This document shows positions 1,535 to 63,735 of a stretch of DNA of 64,000 nt, piece after piece. A program made the translations under genes and the position numbers. The stretch is from Sialis fuliginosa (taxonomy: Eukaryota; Arthropoda; Insecta; Megaloptera; Sialidae): contig OY540810.1 of NCBI GenBank assembly GCA_961205875.1, forward strand, positions 31,000,001 to 31,064,000. The letters are read 5' to 3'. The stretch's first letter is position 1; the number at the start of each line of letters is the position of its first letter. Below the pieces are notes generated by a model, which made no database searches, was not told the DNA's origin, and was given only the letters and a program-made list of their open reading frames with translations.

Positions 1535-3980
1535 TTTATACCATGGTGTCTTGGCCTCACTTATGATTTCATACAATCTTCTCTGTAAGGGACTTTCTGT
1601 CTTCAACGTTTCAGTTATTTAGTTAACTTTTACTGTGACACCCAACCTTTCTCCTTTAATTAAGTTTCTCAATGTCAAAAATATTAAAAATTTTATACTT
1701 GGGAAAAATAAAAAAAATAAAAATTAATACAAAAAGACATTTTATTACTTTTAAAATAGAGGCATATATTTACATTATAAATAAACTTAAGTATTACAAA
1801 CTAATACAATATTATTTCCTATACAAAAATTTCATTTGACTATCAAGTTTAGAGCTAAATTATAATGAAAATAATACTATAATAACAGTAAAATGTAAAA
1901 AACTAATTCTAGTTAAATAACTTAAAATGAAAGGTAAGCATTTACTATATTTACATACATATTAGAAAATTCTCATAACTATGTAATTATAAAAATTAAT
2001 GTAATTCTGAAATTTCAGTAGATACAAAAAATAATTTTGTAATAAAAAATTAAGTAAGAATTAATACAAAAAGTATTTATTATGTTTTAAATAATAATAT
2101 CAGTATTATAGCTAATCTAAAAAATAAATTAAAATAAATAGTATAAATAAAAAATGTGAACGTTTTTTGTTAAAATATTTAACGTTCTATGAAAAAATAC
2201 TACAATATTTAAAAAATAAAAATAAATAAAAAACTAACTTAAATAATAATTAGAGTACAGTTGATATTCAAGTTGATTATTGTTGCAAATGATTTGTAAT
2301 AAATGATAAATAATTGATAAATACATAAGACACTTATGCCTTTTTATGTTTTATAAAAATGATGATGATTATATGTTTATGTATAGGGTATCAAGATTTA
2401 ATATTTCAAATTAATTAATTTTGCAATTAATTAGTTCGAAATTTGTATGTACATTTTCATAAAATATATAATATTAAAAGTTTAATTATTAATAGTAGAT
2501 TTCTATAAATATCAGAACACAAAAAATCAATTAAATTTAGTAAATTAAATATGTATATCATACTAAAATTCTTTTAAAATACATAGAATTCAAACAGCAA
2601 AATTTTCATAATGATATCATTAAGATTTATTTTTTTGAGATAACAATCTAAAATAAAAGATGTTATCATAATGATATAATTGTGAAAATCTTTACTATTT
2701 TGAAATACTAAATCCTTTTATTAGTAAATATTAAACAACAATAATCAGTTATATTTGATTTTAATTATTAACAAATTTATATTTTAATAATAATTTTATT
2801 TATGACAAGTTTTTAAATGTTTATATTTTCACATATATATATTATAATCGTATATATAACTAAAACTATATAAGTTACTTCATAAAGATATAAAAATAAA
2901 TGCTTGATTACTGAAAATCTAATTATTATTAATTAATAACTTATATCTAATGTGAACTAAAATCTAATTGGTAATACGCATATTTGCCAACAATGGTAAT
3001 GCGGCAATTGTTTTAAAAATTGTTTCGATTTTCAGTATTCAAGAGACCTAAAAGACTGGTGATACGATTATGGCATTTTATACATCTCTATTTCGAATAC
3101 AGCTAAACAAATTTACTAACAACAATAACTAGATTATAATCTTTGGCTTGTAAAATAAAAAATTGGTGATGATTTTCTTATAATATAGAGTAATTGATAA
3201 AAAAAATTCGCTTGATAAAATTTTTGGGGATCAAACATTATTTATTTTAACTTAAAAATTAAATAAATCAATTTGATTTGCCGTTATTTTTGAGTGAATT
3301 TAACATTAAAACCAAACCGACTGAAATTTTCATTTTTTTTGAAAATTATACCGCTTATTTAATACAACTAAATATGCAGCAATTTTCTTATTTCAATACC
3401 TACAAAAAATATAATTTATTCACAAATTTAAACAAAAATTTAAAAACGTGTTATCGTTCATTAAATTTAATATTGAGCATAATGAAATAATATAAATTTT
3501 TGATCTTTGCTTCAAATTTTAAATACGAATGTATACATCAGAACCGTAATAAGTTGCGTTGTACCCGGAGAGCATGAATATAAAAAAATACTAGTTATTA
3601 GTATCATATTCCTTTATTACAGCCCTGGCATATATTTCAGGTAGGGAAATATTTTTTCTAGTGAGTGACTATTGAAAATTAAGGTAAGAATTACATTTTA
3701 CGATGTGTAAATTCAAATAATATTTGTAACTCTATTTTATAAGAAAATCACAATGATTTTTTAGATTCGACTTCGCACATTTTTTTAGAAAACAAATAAT
3801 TTTTTTCTATAATATGTATACTTCTTTTATAAATGATTTAGTGGATTAAATGTACCCTTGTTCACCATTTTAGAATTAACAAGTAACCAATCAACATTCT
3901 CACTTTAAATGTTTCTTACATTATTATATAAATACATTATTTGGTTCATCACGCACTAAACTGTTTTATATACTTACAAG
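1535..3980. other. AT-rich intergenic spacer between two convergent genes
   Basis: About 2.4 kb at very low GC, full of runs of A, T and TAAA. I see no splice-flanked coding segment, no inverted repeat with defined ends and no tandem array. The 70-codon opening at 3278-3490 is low complexity and judged spurious. Confidence 0.5.
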
Positions 3981-4264
3981 TAATGGCTGAAACAAAAATA
4001 AAGAATGTTTAATGATATGAAGAGCTTTTATTTCAATTTTATGTTGTTTTTGGAATTTATGAAATATTTTTTTTTATATAAAGTCCCGAAATTTCTTATT
4101 AGTACACTGGTAATGTTTAAAATACTCAGATCCTGAAATCTCCAAGAACAAATTTTGGGTGACAAAAATCGTTTTACCACAAGATTAATTTTGACTTGAG
4201 ATTGAAATTTTCTAAATTCGGCCCTGACTATATAATCAACTCAGATTATTTAAGTTATGACATA

Positions 4265-4270
4265 TTTATT
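4265..4270 (-). terminator. candidate poly(A) signal of sca
   Basis: On the minus strand this reads AATAAA, about 215 bases after the sca stop codon. A second AATAAA lies further on at 4032-4027. Either would give a short 3' UTR. Which is used cannot be seen from sequence. Confidence 0.35.
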
Positions 4271-4483
4271 ATATCTATGTATGTATAAAAATCTGTGATT
4301 ACAAAAAAAGGTTTTTAAAAAATAGGCTCCATCCTAAAGTAGTATTCTTTAACTATTTTAAAATTCTTTTAGATACGTATACATCAGTAATATAATTTTG
4401 ATACCATATCATTAAACTTCAATATTTCCGTTTCCCCCAATCTCCCCATTTCAACAAGACACGCCCGCACAATTCAAAGCATT

Positions 4484-5200
4484 TCAGTGTATTTGGCAAT
4501 CCTCCCTTCGCTTCACTTTCATCTCACTAGTGGCAACTGCAATCCACTCGTTCCTTGCACTATCAAACCACGTCAACCCCAGGTTATACCTCCCGTTAAG
4601 GTTAGCGTGTTGACAATGCGAGAACCACCAGCCTCCCTCGTAGTTACTCGCGCAGTGCGTGTTAGATATATCTCTGTCACTGTCTATCGTCGAGAACTCC
4701 ATCTTATTTTGGTAATCCAATGCATCGCTAGAGTTACCATCGTAACCTGATACAGTTAACCTGTACCCGTTAGAAAGTCCTTCAACGATGAACTCTGAAT
4801 ATTCCGCATGGTAACTCTTACCGTAGATATCTACCATCTCTATTCTCAACATAGAACAGTTTTCTTTTGTTAATCTGTTGAGGACCCTATTACCGATCCA
4901 GAATTCACCCGATGCCGATCCGAATCCGCGGGAGTACTCGTCCCAGTTTCGGTTAAAGTCGACTGTACCGTCGCGGCGACGTTGGATTATGGTCCATCCG
5001 CTGTTGCAGGAAGCCATCACGGGTTCACCGGCTCCAGGGGAGATGAGATACAGACCGCTTGGACCGCTAACTGAACCACAGTCGTGCGGTAGTTTGTTGA
5101 TGATTGAGTGGTATTCGTTCTCTACTTCTTCAAGTTCTTGAACAATGTTTGTGGTGGAGTTTGCATTCGCGAAAGATTCGGGCAGTTGGGAAGATTCGGC
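4484..5200 (-). CDS. sca: scabrous, terminal exon with fibrinogen-related domain
   Basis: Scabrous is a secreted glycoprotein that acts with Notch in spacing neural precursors and eye units in insects (established for Drosophila). This exon starts after a good acceptor (TTTTCTTCATTTCAG, AG at 5202-5201) in phase 0 and runs 238 codons to a stop. Residues 1-36 are an acidic linker. The fibrinogen-related domain covers about 37-230, with family hallmarks GEFWIGN (98-104), a DSDRD calcium-site region (173-177), and THCASNYEGGWW to HCQHANLNGRYN (181-206). Cys 183 and Cys 196 have the 13-residue spacing of the conserved second disulfide; Cys 41 and 65 probably form the first. Sequons occur at N14, N114 and N156. 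The stretch ending WFDSARNEWIAV is much closer to Scabrous than to tachylectin or angiopoietin types. The C-terminus stops soon after the domain. No frameshift is seen. Confidence 0.88.
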   Translation of the reverse strand, partial: AESSQLPESFANANSTTNIVQELEEVENEYHSIINKLPHDCGSVSGPSGLYLISPGAGEPVMASCNSGWTIIQRRRDGTVDFNRNWDEYSRGFGSASGEFWIGNRVLNRLTKENCSMLRIEMVDIYGKSYHAEYSEFIVEGLSNGYRLTVSGYDGNSSDALDYQNKMEFSTIDSDRDISNTHCASNYEGGWWFSHCQHANLNGRYNLGLTWFDSARNEWIAVATSEMKVKRREDCQIH

Positions 5201-6403
5201 CTGAAATGAAGAAAATTCGTTTAGAATTTATAAACAATAATTATAATTAAATCTATTTACACATCATATTGCACTTTTTTTTATCTAGAATCAAAAGCTA
5301 CTCTTTCGAAAACATAAATATAATATTTATAATTATATTTTCAAGTGGATGGGAAAAATAACCAATAATATACAGTGAAACCTCGAACCGATCTCTTCTC
5401 CTACATTAGTTCCAAAATTCTAAGGATAGTCTGATCATTTCCTATATGCTCGTAGACTAAAAGTAGATTGGGGATTACTATCAGTGAAAAAGATTGGACA
5501 CCCACGTCTTACACGATCTTAACTCTTTAGTCGGTTTACCGGCTTGAAATAATAATGTGTATACCCAAATGGCCGGTATACCGGCCTGTTGTTTAGGAGC
5601 TCAGGACCAAGCTGCCAGTAAATCCAGGAGCTTAGGGTTCAAAAGGTCAAAACATTTCCGTTAGAGATCAGGTATAATTAGATCCAGTTATATCTGGTTG
5701 AATATAAACATAACTACGACACTAGACATAAACATAATATAAAAACTATTCAAACCCGCCAAAACATAGTATATAAAAATGTCATAAATAATACTATTAA
5801 AATATTTAATAAGATACCGAAACGTATAACAGATCTTCCACTCTCTAAAATAAAAGTTGTGTTAAGAGAATATCTGATAGAAAAGTGTCATTACAGCTTA
5901 CATGAGTTTTTCGACAATGCATAGATCATTAACACTTAATATATATTACTTATAATTAAACTGTAAAATATTTCTTCTAACTTATTCAATAGATAGACTA
6001 AATTCTAGGCTAAATTCTGGCGATAACCTTTTTAATTATATGTTTTCATAACATTGTTTTTCTCATAACTTCTCAAAAATTTAATAATAATCCTTGGCCA
6101 CAACGCTTGTATATACCGAATTGCCGGTATTCCGACCGATTGTTCAGGAGCTCAGGGTTACTCTGCAAGTAAATCCAGAAGCTCATAATATCACTTTCTT
6201 ATGTGACCGATTTCCTTATTTGTTATAGGTTTGAGAACTTTCACTGTATCTATACTCATTGTTAGATGCATTGATTGTTGCTAAAATCGACCGGAAAATT
6301 ATTAAAAAACACCTCAACTTTCAGCGGCAATTAACATACATACATCAGCAAAAACACACACATACATTTCTATAAAACTCGAATAATATAAATCAAAAAT
6401 TAC

Positions 6404-37818: not shown

Positions 37819-37941
37819 ATATTGAAATAAAAAACAGACATTTACCGTTAAAAATTAAGTTTTTATTATTATTATTAAATAAATAATACAATAAATAATA
37901 AAAAAGATAACAAAACTACAGCTACAATTTGACAAATCTAC

Positions 37942-40900
37942 TTAGTCCGGACGTTAAGAGCGATATTTCGACTAATCTCTGCACTTTTTGATAGAAGCAT
38001 GAAAATTGGTATAGTTGTACATTAAACCTTCCTCTACAAAACTAGAAATGGCGACATTTCAAAAACCTGTGTGGTCCCCTTTTTAGGGGCAAAAATATCT
38101 CCGCGGATTTAGTTTTTCTTATTTATCTTGCAAATGGTTATCCGGACGACACAAATAGAAGACACCCAAAATAATGTTTATTAGATTCTAAACAAAAGTT
38201 GTTATTATAAATTTTACGATAAGAGTCACCGTTGCCGTATAAATGGGGGTTAAAATTATGAGAAAATTTGCGCGCACGGTGAAACTTGCGTTCATGCTCA
38301 AATATCTCGTAAACGGGATTTCTCACGAGAAAAATTAATAGGGCAAATATTAAAGAGCAGACAATTCTCTATCAGATGTATAAATCTGTCATCCTGTAAA
38401 ATTATTTTTTAATGAATTTTGGTCACTACAAGTAGAATGACATATATGACAATTTAAGAAAAGTAACGGTTCTCGTCTAATTTTGTTTTCGTTATGTATA
38501 ATTAAGCACTTGTATAGTTAAGTTATGGTTCTTTTATAATAATTTATGAATATAAAGAGAACGAAAGATAAAAAAATTGTGTTAAATTGACCTGCATTTA
38601 TCAATAAATCAAAAAATAACTATACGAACAAAAAAAAATTGTTTATTATTATAAAGTACACCCTGTATAATATATTATATGTACTTATGTTATAAATATG
38701 ACAAAACATTAAAATTATAAATATTTATAGGCTATATACATGTTTTTTATTCTCTTTAGCTGGAAAAACTTCTATTAACACTAGTGCAGAATCTCTTGAT
38801 AGCTCCTATTTGTTATACAAACCTTCAAACGCCCAAAACTTTAGGATGAATATATTCGTCATAAAGTTTAGAATAATAAACAATTAATTATTTTTTACTT
38901 AACATTGTACATTTTGAGTAATTTGAAGTTGAAATTGATGACTATTAGACGATAACAGTAAGAGTTGTGTCGGATATATTCTTTTTTGTTTCAAATCTCG
39001 TGAACGGTCAATTGGATGTAAAAAATGTACTGAAACTGAATTGTCGGCAATGAAATTTTGAATAACATTTCGTTATGTTTCACATGTCAAATATTAAAGT
39101 TTCCTAGTAAATAAAGGTCAAAGTTACAAATTAATTGATATATTACATGAACGGTGTAAAGCAGGGCATATTTGTCACACAATATTTTATGACCAGTTTT
39201 TTACAATTCAAAAAATTATAGAAAATATAATAGAGTGGACTTATATCTACCATACATACATTTTACTTTTACAAAAAATATGATAGTTTTATTGTTAAAC
39301 ATGATTTCTCAGCATTGTTATTTAGTATGATATTTTTAGTATGTACGGTAATTATTATTTTTTTATTCCGGCCGATCTTTAGGAATTCAACCCTGCGATT
39401 CATGATGGAAATATAAAATTTTATACAGTTGTACATCAAACCCACCTCTACAAACCTAGATATGACTCTACCCTCAAATCTTGTGCGGTCCCCCATTCAG
39501 AGGTTAACATAATATCTCCACAAGTTTTTTTATTTAAATTTTGTAAATAATATTATAAATAAAATATAAAAAGCGTATTACACAATTCAAATATTACATT
39601 TTAATAGAGAGATGAGTAAAATGCACATATGAATATGTAAATGTATGTATATATTTATCGTATCATTTTCAAAAATTTAAATTAAAAAATTTAAATAAAG
39701 AAAACTTGTGGAGATACTATGTTAACCTCTGAATGGGGGACCGCACAAGATTTGAGGGTAGAGTCATATCTAGGTTTGTAGAGGTGGGTTTGATGTACAA
39801 CTGTATAAAATTTTATATTTCCATCATGAATCGCAAGGTTGAATTCCTAAAGATCGGCCGGAAAAAAAAATTAGAATTTCCATACATACTAAAAATATCA
39901 TACTAAATAACAATGCTGAGAAATCATGTTTAACAATAAAACTATCATATTTTTTGTAAAAGTAAAATTTATGTATGGTAGATATAAGTCTACTCTATAA
40001 TATTTTCTATAATTTTTTGAATTGTAAAAAACTGGTCATAAAATATTGTGTGACAAATATGCCCTGCTTTACACCGTTCATGTAATATATCAATTAATTT
40101 ATAACTTTGACCTTTATTTACTAGGAAACTTTAATATTTGACATGTGAAACATAACGAAATGTTATTCAAAATTTCATTGCCGACAATTCAGTTTCAGTA
40201 CATTTTTTACATCCAATTGACCGTTCACGAGATTTGAAACAAAAAAGAATATATCCGACACAATTCTTACTGTTATCGTCTAATAGTCATCAATTTCAAC
40301 TTCAAATTACTCAAAATGTACAATGTTAAGTAAAAAATAATTAATTGTTTATTATTCTAAACTTTATGACGAATATATTCATCCTAAAGTTTTGGGCGTT
40401 TGAAGGTTTGTATAACAAATAGGAGCTATCAAGAGATTCTGCACTAGTGTTAATAGAAGTTTTTCCAGCTAAAGAGAATAAAAAACATGTCTATAGCCTA
40501 TAAATATTTATAATTTTAATGTTTTGTCATATTTATAACATAAGTACATATAATATATTATACAGGGTGTACTCTATAATTAAAAAAAAATTTTTTTGTT
40601 CGTATAGTTATTTTTTGATTTATTGATAAATGCAGGTCAATTTAACACAATTTTTTTATCTTTCTTTCTCTTTATATTCATAAATTATTATAAAAGAACC
40701 ATAACTTAACTATACAAGTGCTTAATTATACATAACGAAAACAAAATTGGACGAGAACCGTTACTTTTCTTAAATTGTCATATATGTCATTCTACTTGTA
40801 GTGACCAAAATTCATTAAAAAATAATTTTACAGGATGACAGATTCATACATCTGATAGAGAATTGTCTGCTCTTTAATATTTGCCCTATTAATTTTTCTC

Positions 40901-41275
40901 GTGAGAAATCCCGTTTACGAGATATTTGAGCATGAACGCAAGTTTCACCGTGCGCGCAAATTTTCTCATAATTTTAACCCCCATTTATACGGCAACGGTG
41001 ACTCTTATCGTAAAATTTATAATAACAACTTTTGTTTAGAATCTAATAAACATTATTTTGGGTGTCTTCTATTTGTGTCGTCCGGATAACCATTTGCGAG
41101 ATAAATAAGAAAAACTAAATCCGCGGAGATATTTTTGCCCCTAAAAGGGGGACCACACAGGTTTTTGAAATGTCGCCATTTCTAGTTTTGTAGAGGAAGG
41201 TTTAATGTACAACTATACCAATTTTCATGCTTCTATCAAAAAGTGCAGATGAAAAGTTCTTAACGTCCGGACTAA
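37942..41275. mobile_element. giant foldback element, 3.33 kb with two arms of about 1.59 kb
   Basis: The left end TTAGTCCGGACGTTAAGA is mirrored at the right end by TCTTAACGTCCGGACTAA. The arms, about 37942-39540 and 39686-41275, are inverted copies with only scattered mismatches by eye; an identical 62-codon opening appears in both (38326-38138 minus, 40901-41089 plus). About 145 bases of unpaired AT-rich loop separate them. Inside each arm the inner 280 bases are a diverged direct copy of the outer 180-200 bases. I see no transposase. Lies wholly in the sca intron. Confidence 0.9.
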
Positions 41276-41474
41276 CTGACAAAAAATTAAAAATAAATAA
41301 TAGGTAGGTACTTGTTATATTTAATCAATGGCAAAAATGTGATTTTTGGATTCAAAAAGTTTGCACCCAGAAATCAAGAACAATAAAACTTATTAAAATC
41401 TAATTAAATACTAGTACTAAAATTATTCTAATTATTAATTATTGTCTCGAACGTGATTTAAAATTTTGGTAACT

Positions 41475-42050: not shown

Positions 42051-42096
42051 TCATTTCACGTTTACACACAAACAACATTCAAAGCTTATGACCTAC

Positions 42097-42945
42097 CTTC
42101 AAAATATGATCATGTATCTTCCGATTCTGCAAACTATCGGATTCTTGCAACAACGTAAGCGTGATATTGACTTGCTCTAGCGTTTCATGATCCATATCCA
42201 CTTTGTCCTTCAGATTCGACACACCTGCCCCTATCGCCTTCACGCTACGTATAGCATTACTTTGATCTTCTTTCATTAACGCCACTTCAGACATCGTCTG
42301 CGCCATGTCGAACTCCAGCTTTGATATCTCTTTCCTAAAGTCCGGTACTGTCTTGTCAACTTTATTTTCAATACTCTCTACCTTCTCTAACAACTCTAAT
42401 ATTGATCTATGCAGTTTATCGAAGTTGTTAACTTGTCGACTCATATTAAACATTGAGAGATCTGCAACTTTTTGAGCCTTCTCCAAACCTTCCACGCGAT
42501 TGGACAGATTGACTTCGGTCGGTGAGATTACTTCGTTTCTAATAACACTTTGATCGCTTTGATAATCGTTATCCGCACCACTGTTGACACTCTTCTCTAC
42601 TTTGTCCATCCGGTTTTCAATAAGTCTTAACCGGTTATCGACGTTTCTGTCAACATAACCTCTTTTTGCTGGTTTGAAATGTTGGTTCGTGTCTTGTACT
42701 CCATTCAAAACGTCTTCCATCGAGTGAATCTTCTCATTGAGGAGTTTCTGTGATGCGAATAGTTCTCTATTTGTGCGTTCTAATTCGACAATACGTTTCT
42801 TAAGCAAGCGCTGGTGTCGAGATTTCCTGCTGCTATCATCTTCTTGGTTTCCACCATCAGAGACGAGTAACTTTCTCTCGTCGTTTGTCGTTGAAGACAT
42901 CAATGTGTTCCATTTGTAGCTCCATTCACGTTCAGCGGATTTCAG
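42097..42945 (-). CDS. sca: scabrous, coiled-coil exon
   Basis: An internal exon bounded by the acceptor TTATTATTTCCAG (AG at 42947-42946) and the donor AAG/GTAGGT (GT at 42096-42095). It is 849 bases, exactly 283 codons, phase 0 at both ends, so it joins in frame to the fibrinogen exon at 5200. The protein starts LKSAEREWSYKWN. It has a basic segment near 40-55 (RKSRHQRLLKKR) and then heptad-patterned stretches (VELERTNRELFASQKLL, LIENRMDKVEKSV, LLEKVESIENKVDK) as expected for the oligomerising N-terminal part of Scabrous. Sequons NLS, NMS and NIT suggest a secreted glycoprotein. No signal peptide is present, so at least one upstream exon is missing. Assignment to sca rests mainly on the partner exon, strand, order and phase. 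Confidence 0.78.
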
Positions 42946-42949
42946 CTGG

Positions 42950-45800
42950 AAATAATAAGGTATTGTTAGTTAATTTAATCAAGCTGTATTTAAATATTTT
43001 ACGATAATCTGAATGCGGATTTCATGTTCAGATTTATTCTTTACATTTTCATAATAATAGAAAGTAAAATTTCTATTTAAATTTCATATTAATTAAGTTG
43101 AATATAATTTATTAAAATATATGAAAACAAAAAATACATTTTCAGGATGATATAGCCAAAAGAATTGAATATATACAAAAATAAATCTTTTTTTGACTAT
43201 ACATAGTATAGCCTTTCCCATTTGGATGTTAGGGTATATTAGTTAATATTAGGGAATACTATATAAATTCGGGTATATAATAGATATTTATAATAAGTAT
43301 ATTTAACATTTTGTTATTCTTGAATATTGACAATGTTATAAGCGAATTAATTTTCGGTAAATGAAAGCAAATTATAAATCTTTGTTGTCTTTCTTATTTA
43401 AGTTTTTTTTTCTTATTTAGGATTAGTCTTTTATGATTCTTAACGGAACATTTACTAGGATAATTATTAAAATTATATTTCATTTTTTTTTATCAAAAGC
43501 TTTGAAGATAATTACTATTTAAAATTCGTTGAGAAAATATTAAAAAATAAAAATAATAAAAACATCAGTAATACGAGTATAGTTTTAATCGTATTATTGT
43601 AGGAAGTATGTGTATTATTGTGTATATATCGGTAAACTATTGGCCTGTTTTTAAAGTGAATTAAAACAAAATAATTAATATTCAGTAGTGTACATTGTTT
43701 ATCGACAATTGAAACTCGCTAACGGAATAATTTATGAGTTTTGTTTCGAGCTAGCCAGCACAAATAAACGTTAAATTCATTATCGAATTATTTTCTACCA
43801 CATCGTTTGTTTTTATTTATTTTTATTTGAACTCGTGATACCTGATCATTTATTTTGATTTTAACAGATATTGCTTAGTGGAAATGTATGCTAATTTCTT
43901 TATTATTTTTAACTCTTGAGTGTATTTTTAAATTATGTAAATAGTTTTTTTGTTTGTTATTCGTGAATAAATTTAGATTTTATATAATGGTGTATATAAT
44001 AATTTTAATTTTTTCAGTTTTTTGCATGTAGGTATGTAGGAATTCCTTGTTTTGGGTTGAGATTAATTTTTCTTGTCAAACATTCGGAGTAAGTACTTTT
44101 CAGATAGTTTTTGAATATTTTACACAACTAGAAAAAATATAATTTTTATATTATCTCGTATTCTGTTGGAATAAATTTACAAATTCTAAACATTGATATC
44201 ATTAATTGCTATGAAAAAGCATTACATGTTTCATACTTTTTAATTCAAATGATATAGATAAGCCCACCCCTGTTTATACCTCGTTAGCATTGTAATTTTT
44301 GCAGTCTGGTAATTTTTCGTAATCGATTATTGATTCCAGAAAATAATTGGCCATGAAAGTAGAAAAAAAGTGCGAATGGAACGAGCTAAAAAAGTCATTA
44401 AAATTATCGTAGATTAACCGATTATCTCTTATCCTATACTCGATGTTTGAACATGAATATTAATAGATTTTTTACAGTGGAAATTAAACTAAATTACATG
44501 TTCTTTTGACGAATAATTTAAATTTAAAACAAATTTAATTTCATTACAAATTTTTTTGTTGACAGTTTCTGATTCGTGCTAATCGATGAAAAAATTTAAT
44601 TAAATAATTTGAAAAGGGATAGTTATTAAATGAACATGTAACTGTAAATAAATAAAATAAAAAATAAATAATTGTTATAAAAACCTATATTTTGCATATT
44701 TCCAATTAATTATTTGCTACTGATAATAAACCAAAAATAATGAGGTTAATTGCAAATTTTAACATCAAATAAACCTATACTTATTATGCACCAATAATTC
44801 CACATTAAAATTAATAACTGAAAAAAAGAACATAAAAGAACCCCAGTGAAATATGAACGGCCTTTGAAAACACGCGAATCGAAAATTAAATCATTTGTCA
44901 TTCGTGGATGTACTAATTAGAAAACAAACCGAAAGAGCAAATTAATAAAAAAAAAAACTGTATTCAAAATGAATTCATTAATTATTCGATAATCAAGGAT
45001 TAGGAGCGCAGCCAACGGTTGAGCGATCTGAAGTGTGTGAAGCTATATTTCGATCATCCTTGGAATAATAATCAATCAAGTTCACCCGCTCATAATTAAC
45101 AATTACAACTGAATTCGCATTAACACCGTCTTTGTAAGATAATGATCGCAGTATTGTAATGCTGTGCACCATTTATAGCGAGCGGCAATTATATTTTTAG
45201 TATTACTAGAATTGTAATATTTTTTAACAGGTTTAACCTGCAGTTTCATCTGTTCGCGTAACCACCTGTTTTAAACACGTAGACACATTCATAGACGCTT
45301 ACCTTTATTTAGCACTAGTGCATTGGTCCCGATGTTACCCAGGGATATTAATTCAAAAATTATACACCTAAACATTACTTATCCATTAGTGAAAACCGGA
45401 ATAAAATCCATTCAGTAGTTATTGAGAAAATTGTGTAAAATAACATATATTTTTAAAATCCCAGGAAACACCAGGTCTAAGAATTTGTATGAAAATCAAA
45501 AATAAGCAACAATCATAGTAATTAATTTCGATATTTTACCTTTTTTGGAAGTGAAATGTTTCTTTATATTTTAATTTTCAATCAATATATTTCAAAATAT
45601 TTAATTGTTAACATGTGTCAAAAATCATCTATTTGTTCGACAAAATATTTGAAAAATACGTGATCATAGTGAGTTAAATTAATAAAATACTGAAACCATA
45701 AATTATCGAATTCTGTATTCCATGGCTAGGTACTATGTTTTTATATACCTAAATGAGAGTTGTATGCTTTGACATCATGGAAATAAAACACGACTTGATA
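42950..45800. other. DNA upstream of the sca coiled-coil exon, no exon recognised
   Basis: Mostly AT-rich. The segment 44850-45200 is more complex and unique (GATTAGGAGCGCAGCCAACG, several ATTA homeodomain-like cores), and may be regulatory. I searched by eye for a short signal-peptide exon in phase 0 and found none convincing. Confidence 0.3.
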
Positions 45801-52887: not shown

Positions 52888-54002
52888 GGGTGTTTCGTTT
52901 GAAACGAATATTTTTTTTTTTCCTCCGACACTGTGAAATATTGTTCTCAACACTGAAAAAAAAATTCCCTGAAAATTTGAGCCCTTAATTTTAATTTAAA
53001 GTACTTCCTTTTTTATTTTGAATTTTTCCCATTTAAAATACATGTATTTTAAACCACGTTTTTTTTAAATTTCTATATCTTGGCTGGATTTTAAACTATT
53101 ATGTTGATAAGCATTGATATTTGTAGTATATTTAACGCTCTTTTGAAGACCTTAGGACAATTTCAACCCAACTTATTTCATATTATTTTTATTAGCCCTG
53201 TTAGTCATTTTTTTAATTTTTTTCACATATTTTTGAAAATATTGAGAAAATGGCTTGTCTGGCTGAAAAAATGTAGAGACAAAAATTGTAGGAAATCAAA
53301 TTTTCTACAAAAATGATGTCTATAAATATGTCGCTCGAATGCATAGTTTCGGAAATATGAACAGTTGAATATTTGAAAATCAAAAAAATATTAATTTTTT
53401 TCTTTCCTATTATTGTTAAAATTTTTCTCTTATAATTTTCTCACGACATTTCTCTACAGGCCTAAAGTGAATTTAAGACAGTAAAACTCAAAAAAATTAA
53501 TATTTTTTTGATTTTCAAATATTCAACTGTTCATATTTCCGAAACTATGCATTCGAGCGACATATTTATAGACATCATTTTTGTAGAAAATTTGATTTCC
53601 TACAATTTTTGTCTCTACATTTTTTCAGCCAGACAAGCCATTTTCTCAATATTTTCAAAAATATGTGAAAAAAATTAAAAAAATGACTAACAGGGCTAAT
53701 AAAAATAATATGAAATAAGTTGGGTTGAAATTGTCCTAAGGTCTTCAAAAGAGCGTTAAATATACTACAAATATCAATGCTTATCAACATAATAGTTTAA
53801 AATCCAGCCAAGATATAGAAATTTAAAAAAAACGTGGTTTAAAATACATGTATTTTAAATGGGAAAAATTCAAAATAAAAAAGGAAGTACTTTAAATTAA
53901 AATTAAGGGCTCAAATTTTCAGGGAATTTTATTTCAGTGTTGAGAACAATATTTCACAGTGTCGGAGGAAAAAAAAAAATATTCGTTTCAAACGAAACAC
54001 CC
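52888..54002. mobile_element. 1.1-kb near-perfect palindrome, TA-flanked, GGGTGTTTCG ends
   Basis: Left GGGTGTTTCGTTTGAAACGA and right TCGTTTCAAACGAAACACCC; TA outside both ends (52886-52887, 54003-54004). The arms are inverted copies almost to the centre near 53445; an identical 71-codon opening occurs in each arm on opposite strands. Sequence is AT-rich and does not look coding. Confidence 0.88.
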
Positions 54003-62640: not shown

Positions 62641-63735
62641 TCAAGAAGCAATAAGCGACCCTTTGCTAGGAGTATTTAGCAAAGGTTTTATGACATGCAC
62701 ACGTTATCTACGGTCAGGGCACGAACACTTATACAGCGTCTGCAGTAACACACACCTACCCCCGCTGCACACCGCACCCTTAAAAATATTCGAGTATTGC
62801 AGACCAATTCCTAGAACGAGACGTGACGTCACAGGCACGAGCCTGCCATTCTAACTCCGCACTGCGCGCGCCCCTGAGTTACCCAGCGAAATTAGTATAA
62901 AACTGGACGTAAAATGAAGACAAATCAGTCTCCTTCGGGAGGACTCACACGATGATATAGGAGACTCACTCCAAGTCTCACTGACCAGCTCAGCCATTTT
63001 GATAGACTACTGACTGGTTCAATTTCGATAGACAAAAAGGGGATTGTTACACGGCTGCAGGCCCGCGACCATTGTTGCGCCTCTGCAGTCAACAATCACC
63101 CACCGTTGATATTCTCGGGGATTGTTACACGGCTGCAGGCCCGCGACCATTGTTGCGCCTCTGCAGTCAACAATCACCCACCGTTGATATTCTCGGGGAT
63201 TGTTACACGGCTGCAGGCCCGCGACCATTGTTGCGCCTCTGCAGTCAACAATCACCCACCGTTGATATTCTCGGGGATTGTTATACGGCTGCAGGCCCGC
63301 GACCATTGTTGCGCCTCTGCAGTCAACAATCCCCACCTGCGATATTCTCGGGGATTGTTACACGGCTGCAGGCCCGCGACCATTGTTGCGCCTCTGCAGT
63401 CAACAATCCCTATTGATAGACCTAAAGCCTCCCTGGTGGGCCCCAACACCAGAGCTCGTTACTCGCCACGATCCATCCACCGACGCCCGTACCGCCGCTC
63501 TTGGACGCCATCTCCAGGTCCGCCCTCGGACGTTGCCCCCAGGCCCGCACACGTACGCTCAACACATCGACGCCTCCGCCGTCGCCATCTAGGACGCCGA
63601 CGCCGTCCACCACGTCAGTCTACATCCCCCCCAAACTCAAGATGCAGACAACCCTTTAATTACGACACTACTATAATATACAATATAACATAACAAATAT
63701 TATTGTATATTCACATTGTTATTGTTTTAAATAAA
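62640..63735 (+). mobile_element. GC-rich block resembling an LTR-type retroelement regulatory region
   Basis: A compact GC-rich segment set in AT-rich DNA. It has TGACGTCAC at 62825-62833, a TATA-like AGTATAAAACTGG at about 62895, about 140 bases that could be a leader, a 78-base tandem array, a very GC-rich stretch (63425-63640) and an AATAAAAATAAAC poly(A)-type end at about 63731. Promoter, repeats and poly(A) signal in order suggest an LTR, but no LTR ends, partner LTR, primer site or target duplication could be found. It could instead be a gene promoter. Confidence 0.3.
63039..63412 (+). repeat. 78-bp tandem repeat, five units
   Basis: Units start with GGGGATTGTT at 63039, 63117, 63195, 63273 and 63350 (periods 78, 78, 78, 77); the last ends at CAACAATCCC. 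Inside each unit GATTGTT and CTGCAG are mirrored by CTGCAG and AACAATC, so each unit folds into a hairpin. Since 78 is 26 codons, several frames on both strands stay open, giving openings up to 195 codons that repeat a 26-residue unit. GATAGAC flanks the array (63027-63033 and 63415-63421). Confidence 0.95.

Follow-up and report, generated by a model that had tools for sequence, protein, structure and literature searches.

A 3.3-kb palindrome in Sialis fuliginosa is one copy of a dispersed fold-back transposon family with co-evolving arms and mixed tips

Tc4 of Caenorhabditis elegans is an almost perfect palindrome around a short loop, and its 3-bp target duplication has the sequence TNA. The paper on it has 'unusual fold-back structure' in its title. 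Galileo, an element of the P superfamily in Drosophila, makes a target duplication of 7 bp. As far as the portions of PMC3573991 used here go, the terminal inverted repeats (TIRs) of one Galileo copy are 98-100% identical while the mean between copies is lower (92-97% in subfamilies C-X), and the authors proposed exchange and conversion for these TIRs. For Tetris and Foldback, duplications of 8-10 bp are given and homogenisation of the TIR repeats is suggested (PMC4079207, in part). Mutator-like elements with several long TIRs per element also exist, judging by the title of PMC3310237. Zator makes 3-bp duplications and IS3EU has TA..TA termini with usually a 6-bp target duplication, both according to a portion of PMC10045372, and the termini of EnSpm/CACTA are CAC..GTG (a portion of PMC12730594). 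The co-evolution of arms is an idea already known, from Galileo and Tetris.

The palindrome studied here shares with Galileo long, internally repetitive TIRs and the similarity of the TIRs within a copy, but Galileo has coding copies, and the present element differs by its 3-bp duplication, near-complete palindrome and mixed tips. It is like Tc4 in being a near-perfect palindrome with a 3-bp duplication, although the 3 bp are not so restricted as TNA. Like Tetris it is a fold-back, apparently non-autonomous element with no partner found, whereas Tetris has a repeat array in its TIRs and the 8-10 bp duplications. The Mutator-like elements with multiple long TIRs are comparable, by title, to the inner module described below, but theirs is a plant Mutator-like family.

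The palindrome and its copies in the genome

The window is the whole stretch of DNA analysed, 64,000 nucleotides of contig OY540810.1 (positions 31000001-31064000), and the genome searched has 392 Mb in 20 contigs. The segment 37942-41275 of the window (3,334 bases) is 95.7% identical to its own reverse complement over the full length. Its arms, 37978-39520 and 39708-41240, are equal at 1511 of 1531 aligned bases (98.7%), with 14 further gap positions, which leaves 20 differences outside the tips and the centre. The near-perfect palindrome of the preliminary description was thus confirmed; its arms are almost identical over most of their length but unlike in the ~36 bp at the outer end and the ~130 bp at the centre. 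The element itself, a fold-back transposon without a recognised gene, occupies 37943-41274 (3332 bp, no strand assigned) and reads TAGTCCGGAC...GTCCGGACTA, its ends being the points at which copy changes to flank in 25 near-full-length copies. These TAG...CTA ends lie one base inside those proposed earlier, and once they are used the target duplication said to be missing appears as ACT on both sides (37940-37942 and 41275-41277, forward strand). The left tip is of L type (GTTAAGAGCGATATTTCGACTAATC, 37943-37978, forward strand) and the right tip of S type (GTTAAGAACTTTTCATC, 41249-41274, reverse strand). The part of the left arm that is homogenised with the right arm runs from 38002 to 39422 (forward strand, arm positions 60-1480), and its counterpart lies at 39797-41225 on the reverse strand, with approximate bounds. 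An inner module follows on each side (39367-39548, forward strand, and its mirror copy at 39674-39862, reverse strand), and the centre is an asymmetric spacer at 39549-39680 (no strand assigned). The window element has no stop-to-stop frame of at least 110 aa and, as had been noted before, no visible transposase.

A search with the outer 459 bp gave 344 candidates, and the 40 best of them, those that were scored, are all 97-100% identical. The 17-bp tip TAGTCCGGACGTTAAGA has 168 exact occurrences in the genome and its backward-read control has none. The proposed search with the outer end did find dispersed copies, but no autonomous relative. Loci were drawn from the best matches of the 459-bp search and the first 100 of the 168 tip places, and the 25 near-full-length copies are the window copy and those with a match of more than 3000 bases among 40 fetched loci; broken copies were left out. 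The set consists mostly of the best matches to the window copy and is not a random one. Equal 3-bp flanks were found in 24 of the 25, that is in 23 of the 24 copies elsewhere in the genome, and chance and assembly error are therefore very unlikely. When 14 hand-picked and mostly internally deleted or interrupted copies are added, the flanks are equal in 37 of 39 (the exceptions being L011 with AAA/CAT and L089 with GTA/GCA), and they are equal in all three of L017, L042 and L019, which were added later. Since the equal flanks stand just outside TAG...CTA in most copies, the whole palindrome is the transposing unit. Long inverted repeats that make up most of the element, a fixed 3-bp duplication and dispersed multiple copies with constant ends are the marks of fold-back or long-TIR elements, and the window palindrome is one insertion of such a dispersed, apparently non-coding DNA transposon.

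The duplicated 3 bp vary in sequence (AGG, CTC, CAC, GCG, CTG and others). They are 76-86% A+T in the 25 copies, and G+C makes up 42-44% of the three bases that adjoin them on either side but 14-28% farther away, in counts taken in both orientations and hence symmetric by construction; no stricter consensus was seen in these copies. The copies nearest to that of the window (L009, L011 and L012) are 99.3-99.8% identical to it over the whole element, L009 and L011 being at 99.5-99.8%, which indicates that the family moved recently. There is no need for the palindrome to have formed recently, as was suggested earlier, because its structure came down through the family; the window copy itself is a recent insertion.

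Some loci have features of their own. L082 and L089 are miniature forms of ~105 and ~119 bp with one S and one L end only. L036 and L037 are two 2993-bp copies in opposite orientations from which the same core segment is apparently missing, and they probably represent a deletion subfamily that has moved. L045 has TAACCTAA on both flanks, which we take to resemble the insect telomere repeat TTAGG. The reverse-strand tip at 41 in L067 is a 27-bp remnant of an S tip beside other, unrelated sequence. The copy in L029 contains a 2.5-kb palindromic insert at ~2360-4829 with ends CACTGCTTGTCACAATTAGTGGGAC, apparently at TA and presumably Tc1-like, and L030 contains an insert at ~2741-4384 with ends CACTATGG...CCATAGTG and a 5-bp duplication CGTTC, presumably Transib-like.

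Arms, spacer and tips compared among copies

The arms of one copy co-evolve, with the exception of the tips and the innermost ~120 bp. We labelled each arm S or L by its own tip and took the arm statistics from the 25 copies; the counts of site patterns and private variants exclude columns that contain over 5 or 6 gaps, and the AT-rich stretch 680-745 was left out of the tree, private-variant, spacer-change and F analyses. Over six bins of alignment columns 60-1480, the arms of one copy diverge by 0.0064-0.0152 and those of different copies by 0.019-0.047, i.e. 2.4 to ~4-fold less within copies. Four of the six bins lie at 0.64-0.72% within copies and the remaining two at 1.5%, against 1.9-4.7% between copies, and in the four low bins different copies give nearly the same values whether arms of the same side or of opposite sides are compared. 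The contrast is smaller over the whole 1.6-kb arm with tips and innermost part included (1.6% within against 2.9-3.45% between copies), and it is gone in columns 1480-1732, where the arms within a copy differ by 0.041 and the L arms of different copies by 0.033. An inbreeding-like F over arm positions 60-1480 is 0.80 (93 sites), while the maximum under shuffled pairing is 0.25 in 300 trials. Along the arm F is -0.90 at 18-36, 0.75-0.94 in the bins that cover 60-1400 (+0.75 at 60-250), 0.65 at 1400-1480 and 0.08 at 1480-1600. Bending of the duplex is a possible bar to pairing of the innermost ~120 bp.

At the variable sites of arm positions 30-1480 the minor allele is always in both arms at 132, varies from copy to copy between both arms and one arm at 68, and is in single arms only at 33. 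Substitutions private to one copy are in both arms in 101 cases and in one arm in 132, and private deletions of at least 3 bases are in both arms twice (10 bp in L010 and 4 bp in L039) and in one arm nine times. Private variants that occur in both arms imply that the homogenisation takes place within single lineages. A tract is visible in a young group of six copies, where the S arm of L011 has the L-arm letters of its close relatives at 1022-1451 and S-arm letters beyond. The arm differences of this group are shared through several insertions, an identical S/L difference is common to 4-6 of the 25 separately inserted copies at several positions, and the two arms are sisters in the arm tree in only 15 of the 25 copies. 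Homogenisation is therefore sporadic and tract-wise and not obligatory at each jump. The gene conversion between arms that had been proposed is strongly supported by F, the private variants, the tract and the divergence statistics.

The central spacer is found in both orientations relative to the tips, 13 one way and 11 the other among the 24 near-full-length copies with mixed tips. A script scored it in 20 of the 25 copies (19 with mixed tips and L027), with orientation scores far apart, and in L009, L013, L022, L038 and L043 it was read from the sequence and the orientation of the whole element. The minimum number of orientation changes on the arm tree is 5, an approximate figure as the tree is built from recombining arms and has some weak nodes (e.g. 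0.1, 0.37, 0.54); shuffled labels give a mean of 8.2, and 1.45% of the shuffles are as low. With fewer changes than under shuffled labels, the orientation of the spacer is inherited, yet has changed repeatedly. Crossover between the arms would explain the flips simply.

The outermost ~36 bp have two forms, S and L, and 41 of the 42 copies examined carry one of each. In the set of 39 this holds for 38, counting the S tip of L024, which has one substitution, was left untyped by the script and was read as S by eye; L017, L042 and L019 are mixed too, the S tip of L019 being interrupted by an insertion. Genome-wide there are 48 inward-facing pairs of exact tips within 9 kb, namely 45 S/L, one S/S, one L/L and one L/other, in a count that took in 155 of the 168 tips (13 were left out that fit neither the exact S nor the exact L pattern, nor the pattern of the variant position 19). 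The S/S pair comes from a tip of L034 that is duplicated inside the element, between outer tips of L and S type, and in the L/other pair (L098) the L tip is accompanied by a variant of S, so 47 of the 48 are mixed after inspection. Short deletion derivatives of 316, 552, 611, 706 and 804 bp also hold one S and one L. The exception is L027, with the same L variant at both ends; the genome holds no further exact match to this variant, so that no offspring was detected for this single case, and its L/L state is most simply explained by conversion that reached the tip in place. The mix of tips may be due to shielding by heterology, or to selection if transposition needs two different ends, or to both. 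In the literature searched, as far as the cited portions of the sources go, we met neither mixed tips under homogenised arms nor repeated spacer inversion in one family, and both might conceivably be new.

A third kind of tip in L019 was considered and rejected, as the S tip of that copy has been invaded by another fold-back element. This 1.6-kb element (2273-3894 of the locus, ends TAGTGCGAGAGC...GCTCTCGCACTA) interrupts the tip after 13 bases; its inverted repeats are 573 bp long and 98% identical, and its 3-bp duplication is GTT. The tips of this second fold-back family are TAGTGCGAGAG. The inserted element and the palindrome family have TAG...CTA ends, a 3-bp duplication and the fold-back form in common, which in this one copy suggests that both families were moved by a common kind of transposase in the genome.

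Transposase search, class and surroundings

No coding partner was recognised among 49 unpaired exact 17-bp tips, which we read ~470-730 bp inward and compared with the element, untranslated. They come from 20 loci and from a second set of 31 loci, of which 29 were used and two are short pairs. The pair count left 59 tips unpaired, and 12 of these were not read again because they lie in loci already fetched or in matches of the outer 459 bp. A tip pattern that excludes the usual base at position 19 occurs at 6 places, with no autonomous partner among them, and no second copy was found of the end in L068. The interiors followed up are other repeats or single-copy: that of L097 is another repeat (35 matches from 26 candidates) and that of L075 a repeat with 1201 first-look candidates.

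The 3-bp target duplication of Zator is matched by that of the family, but the profile PF07592 (ISAzo13-related transposase, related to Zator) has 0 matches here and also 0 in 14 control genomes, i.e. the search had no positive control. Mutator, Foldback and Tetris would be expected to show 8-10 bp of target duplication against 3 bp here, and EnSpm/CACTA would be expected to end in CAC..GTG against TAG...CTA here. The TA..TA termini of IS3EU fit TAG...CTA, but its usual duplication is 6 bp. Canonical PIF/Harbinger elements duplicate TWA and a Tc4-like element TNA, against the more varied 3 bp of the present family (AGG, CTC, CAC, GCG, CTG and others).

Elsewhere in the window there is a second, perfect palindrome at 52957-53934, with 445-nt arms that are 100% complementary and 88 nt between them. 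A fibrinogen C-terminal domain (PF00147, E 3.6e-48) is encoded at 4484-5227 on the reverse strand, and that strand also has an open frame of 296 aa at 42079-42969, with no family match over the cut-off. The two could be exons of one gene, which would place the palindrome in its intron; we take this gene to be possibly Scabrous-like. An open frame of tandem ~26-aa units is present at 62956-63693.

Origin of the layout and competing explanations

The preliminary description saw the inner end of each arm as a diverged direct copy of the outer end, and this copy is real, both in the alignment and in BLAST comparisons of the outer regions of other copies with the inner module of the window (62 bp at ~80% and 109 bp at ~72%). 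The alignment of the inner module starts 3 bases inside the S tip (TCCGG) with a score of 25.0, and ~19 bases inside the L tip with 23.5; as it starts so near the S tip, the module may extend to the tip itself. A better fit of the L tip to the inner module would have marked the S tip as derived, but we dropped this idea, since S fits slightly better. The module repeats the tip region in direct orientation, which is unfit for the second end of an element. Since the ends of one TIR element face each other, the earlier view of an arm as a self-contained unit with two ends does not hold. The central ~500 bp are themselves palindromic with a terminal-like module at each end. Two loci hint, as a hypothesis, at how such a layout could arise, with the caution that each is a single locus and that perfect inverted copies can be assembly artefacts. 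L034 is one insertion (CAC/CAC) in which the S arm and 148 bp of right flank are duplicated in inverted order and joined near the centre; the flank copies are equal at 148 of 148 aligned bases (8 gap positions) and the compared arm copies at 492 of 494 (5 gap positions). This duplication sets a second tip inside the element, direct to the outer tip, which is the topology of the inner module. The core of L100, 509 bp long, is flanked by perfect 539-bp inverted copies of non-element DNA that partly belongs to another repeat; a full copy whose core is identical stands 1.4 kb away, and L039 has this core too.

We consider it likely, with a probability of about 0.8, that these are non-autonomous, cut-and-paste-like DNA transposons, 3.3-kb near-perfect palindromes whose arms convert each other, whose spacer flips and whose tips stay mixed. 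A transposase encoded elsewhere would presumably move the family in trans, although no partner was found. After insertion the arms of one copy may pair by homologous recombination, in which case events without crossover would convert tracts of one arm to the other and crossovers would flip the spacer. What keeps the tips mixed may be that conversion seldom gets across their heterology, that the transposase prefers a pair of one L and one S end, or both.

That two ordinary elements were joined head to head at this locus, as first proposed, fits the resemblance of the inner module to the tip region, but the 25 near-full-length copies have the same closed structure, one tip pair and, in 24 of 25, one target duplication, and the inner module is direct and not inverted relative to the outer tip, so that we regard this origin as highly improbable. 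The chance that the palindrome is an artefact of assembly or of a fold-back read is practically negligible: palindromes are error-prone and L100 has its perfect 539-bp inverted flanks, but the arms differ at constant places (tips and spacer) and at scattered sites, the copies stand in many places with target duplications, and 41 of 42 copies have unlike tips. Another possibility is that the 500-bp core is a separate, related element inserted in the centre of an older palindrome, as its own palindromic form with the terminal-like modules and the start of the inner module 3 bases from the S tip with TCCGG might indicate. This seems doubtful to us, as the core matches looked at (40 of 74 candidates scored) revealed no core standing alone with a target duplication of its own, and the core of L100, which does lie in foreign arms, is yet part of a perfect inverted duplication. 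More speculatively still, the palindromic core may mark a U-turn of DNA synthesis that makes inverted duplications of adjacent DNA and was the source of the 1.4-kb arms, the two different tips then being kept by selection if only an S and an L end transpose together; we think this unlikely.

Instead of recombination in place, the copying of a strand folded on itself into a hairpin might equalise the arms at each transposition. It would likewise put private variants in both arms, but arm differences survive transposition (the same S/L difference is in 4-6 of 25 separately inserted copies), and the tips and the innermost ~120 bp, the part that would pair best in a hairpin, are not homogenised (F of -0.90 and 0.08); hairpin copying is accordingly improbable. 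The choice is much closer for the tips themselves. They might stay mixed solely because their heterology stops conversion, with no role in transposition, and we give this only slightly less than an even chance. The shift of F from -0.90 at 18-36 to +0.75 at 60-250 is what a barrier would give, and the single L/L copy L027 shows how rarely conversion passes the barrier. What might speak against it is indirect: the short S/L deletion derivatives are expected under either view, and for the lack of detected offspring of L027 n is 1.

Under the favoured reading, with arms that convert each other and tips that stay mixed, one genome shows conversion tracts, spacer inversion and protected ends in many separately inserted palindromes of near-equal length. 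Were mixed tips required for movement, end asymmetry could be tested directly against gene conversion in this family. If inverted duplications are indeed seeded by the core, new palindromes would arise from it locally in the host genome. Should both the U-turn and the selection for one S and one L end be true, the family would be a natural system in which conversion equalises everything but the ends that must differ.
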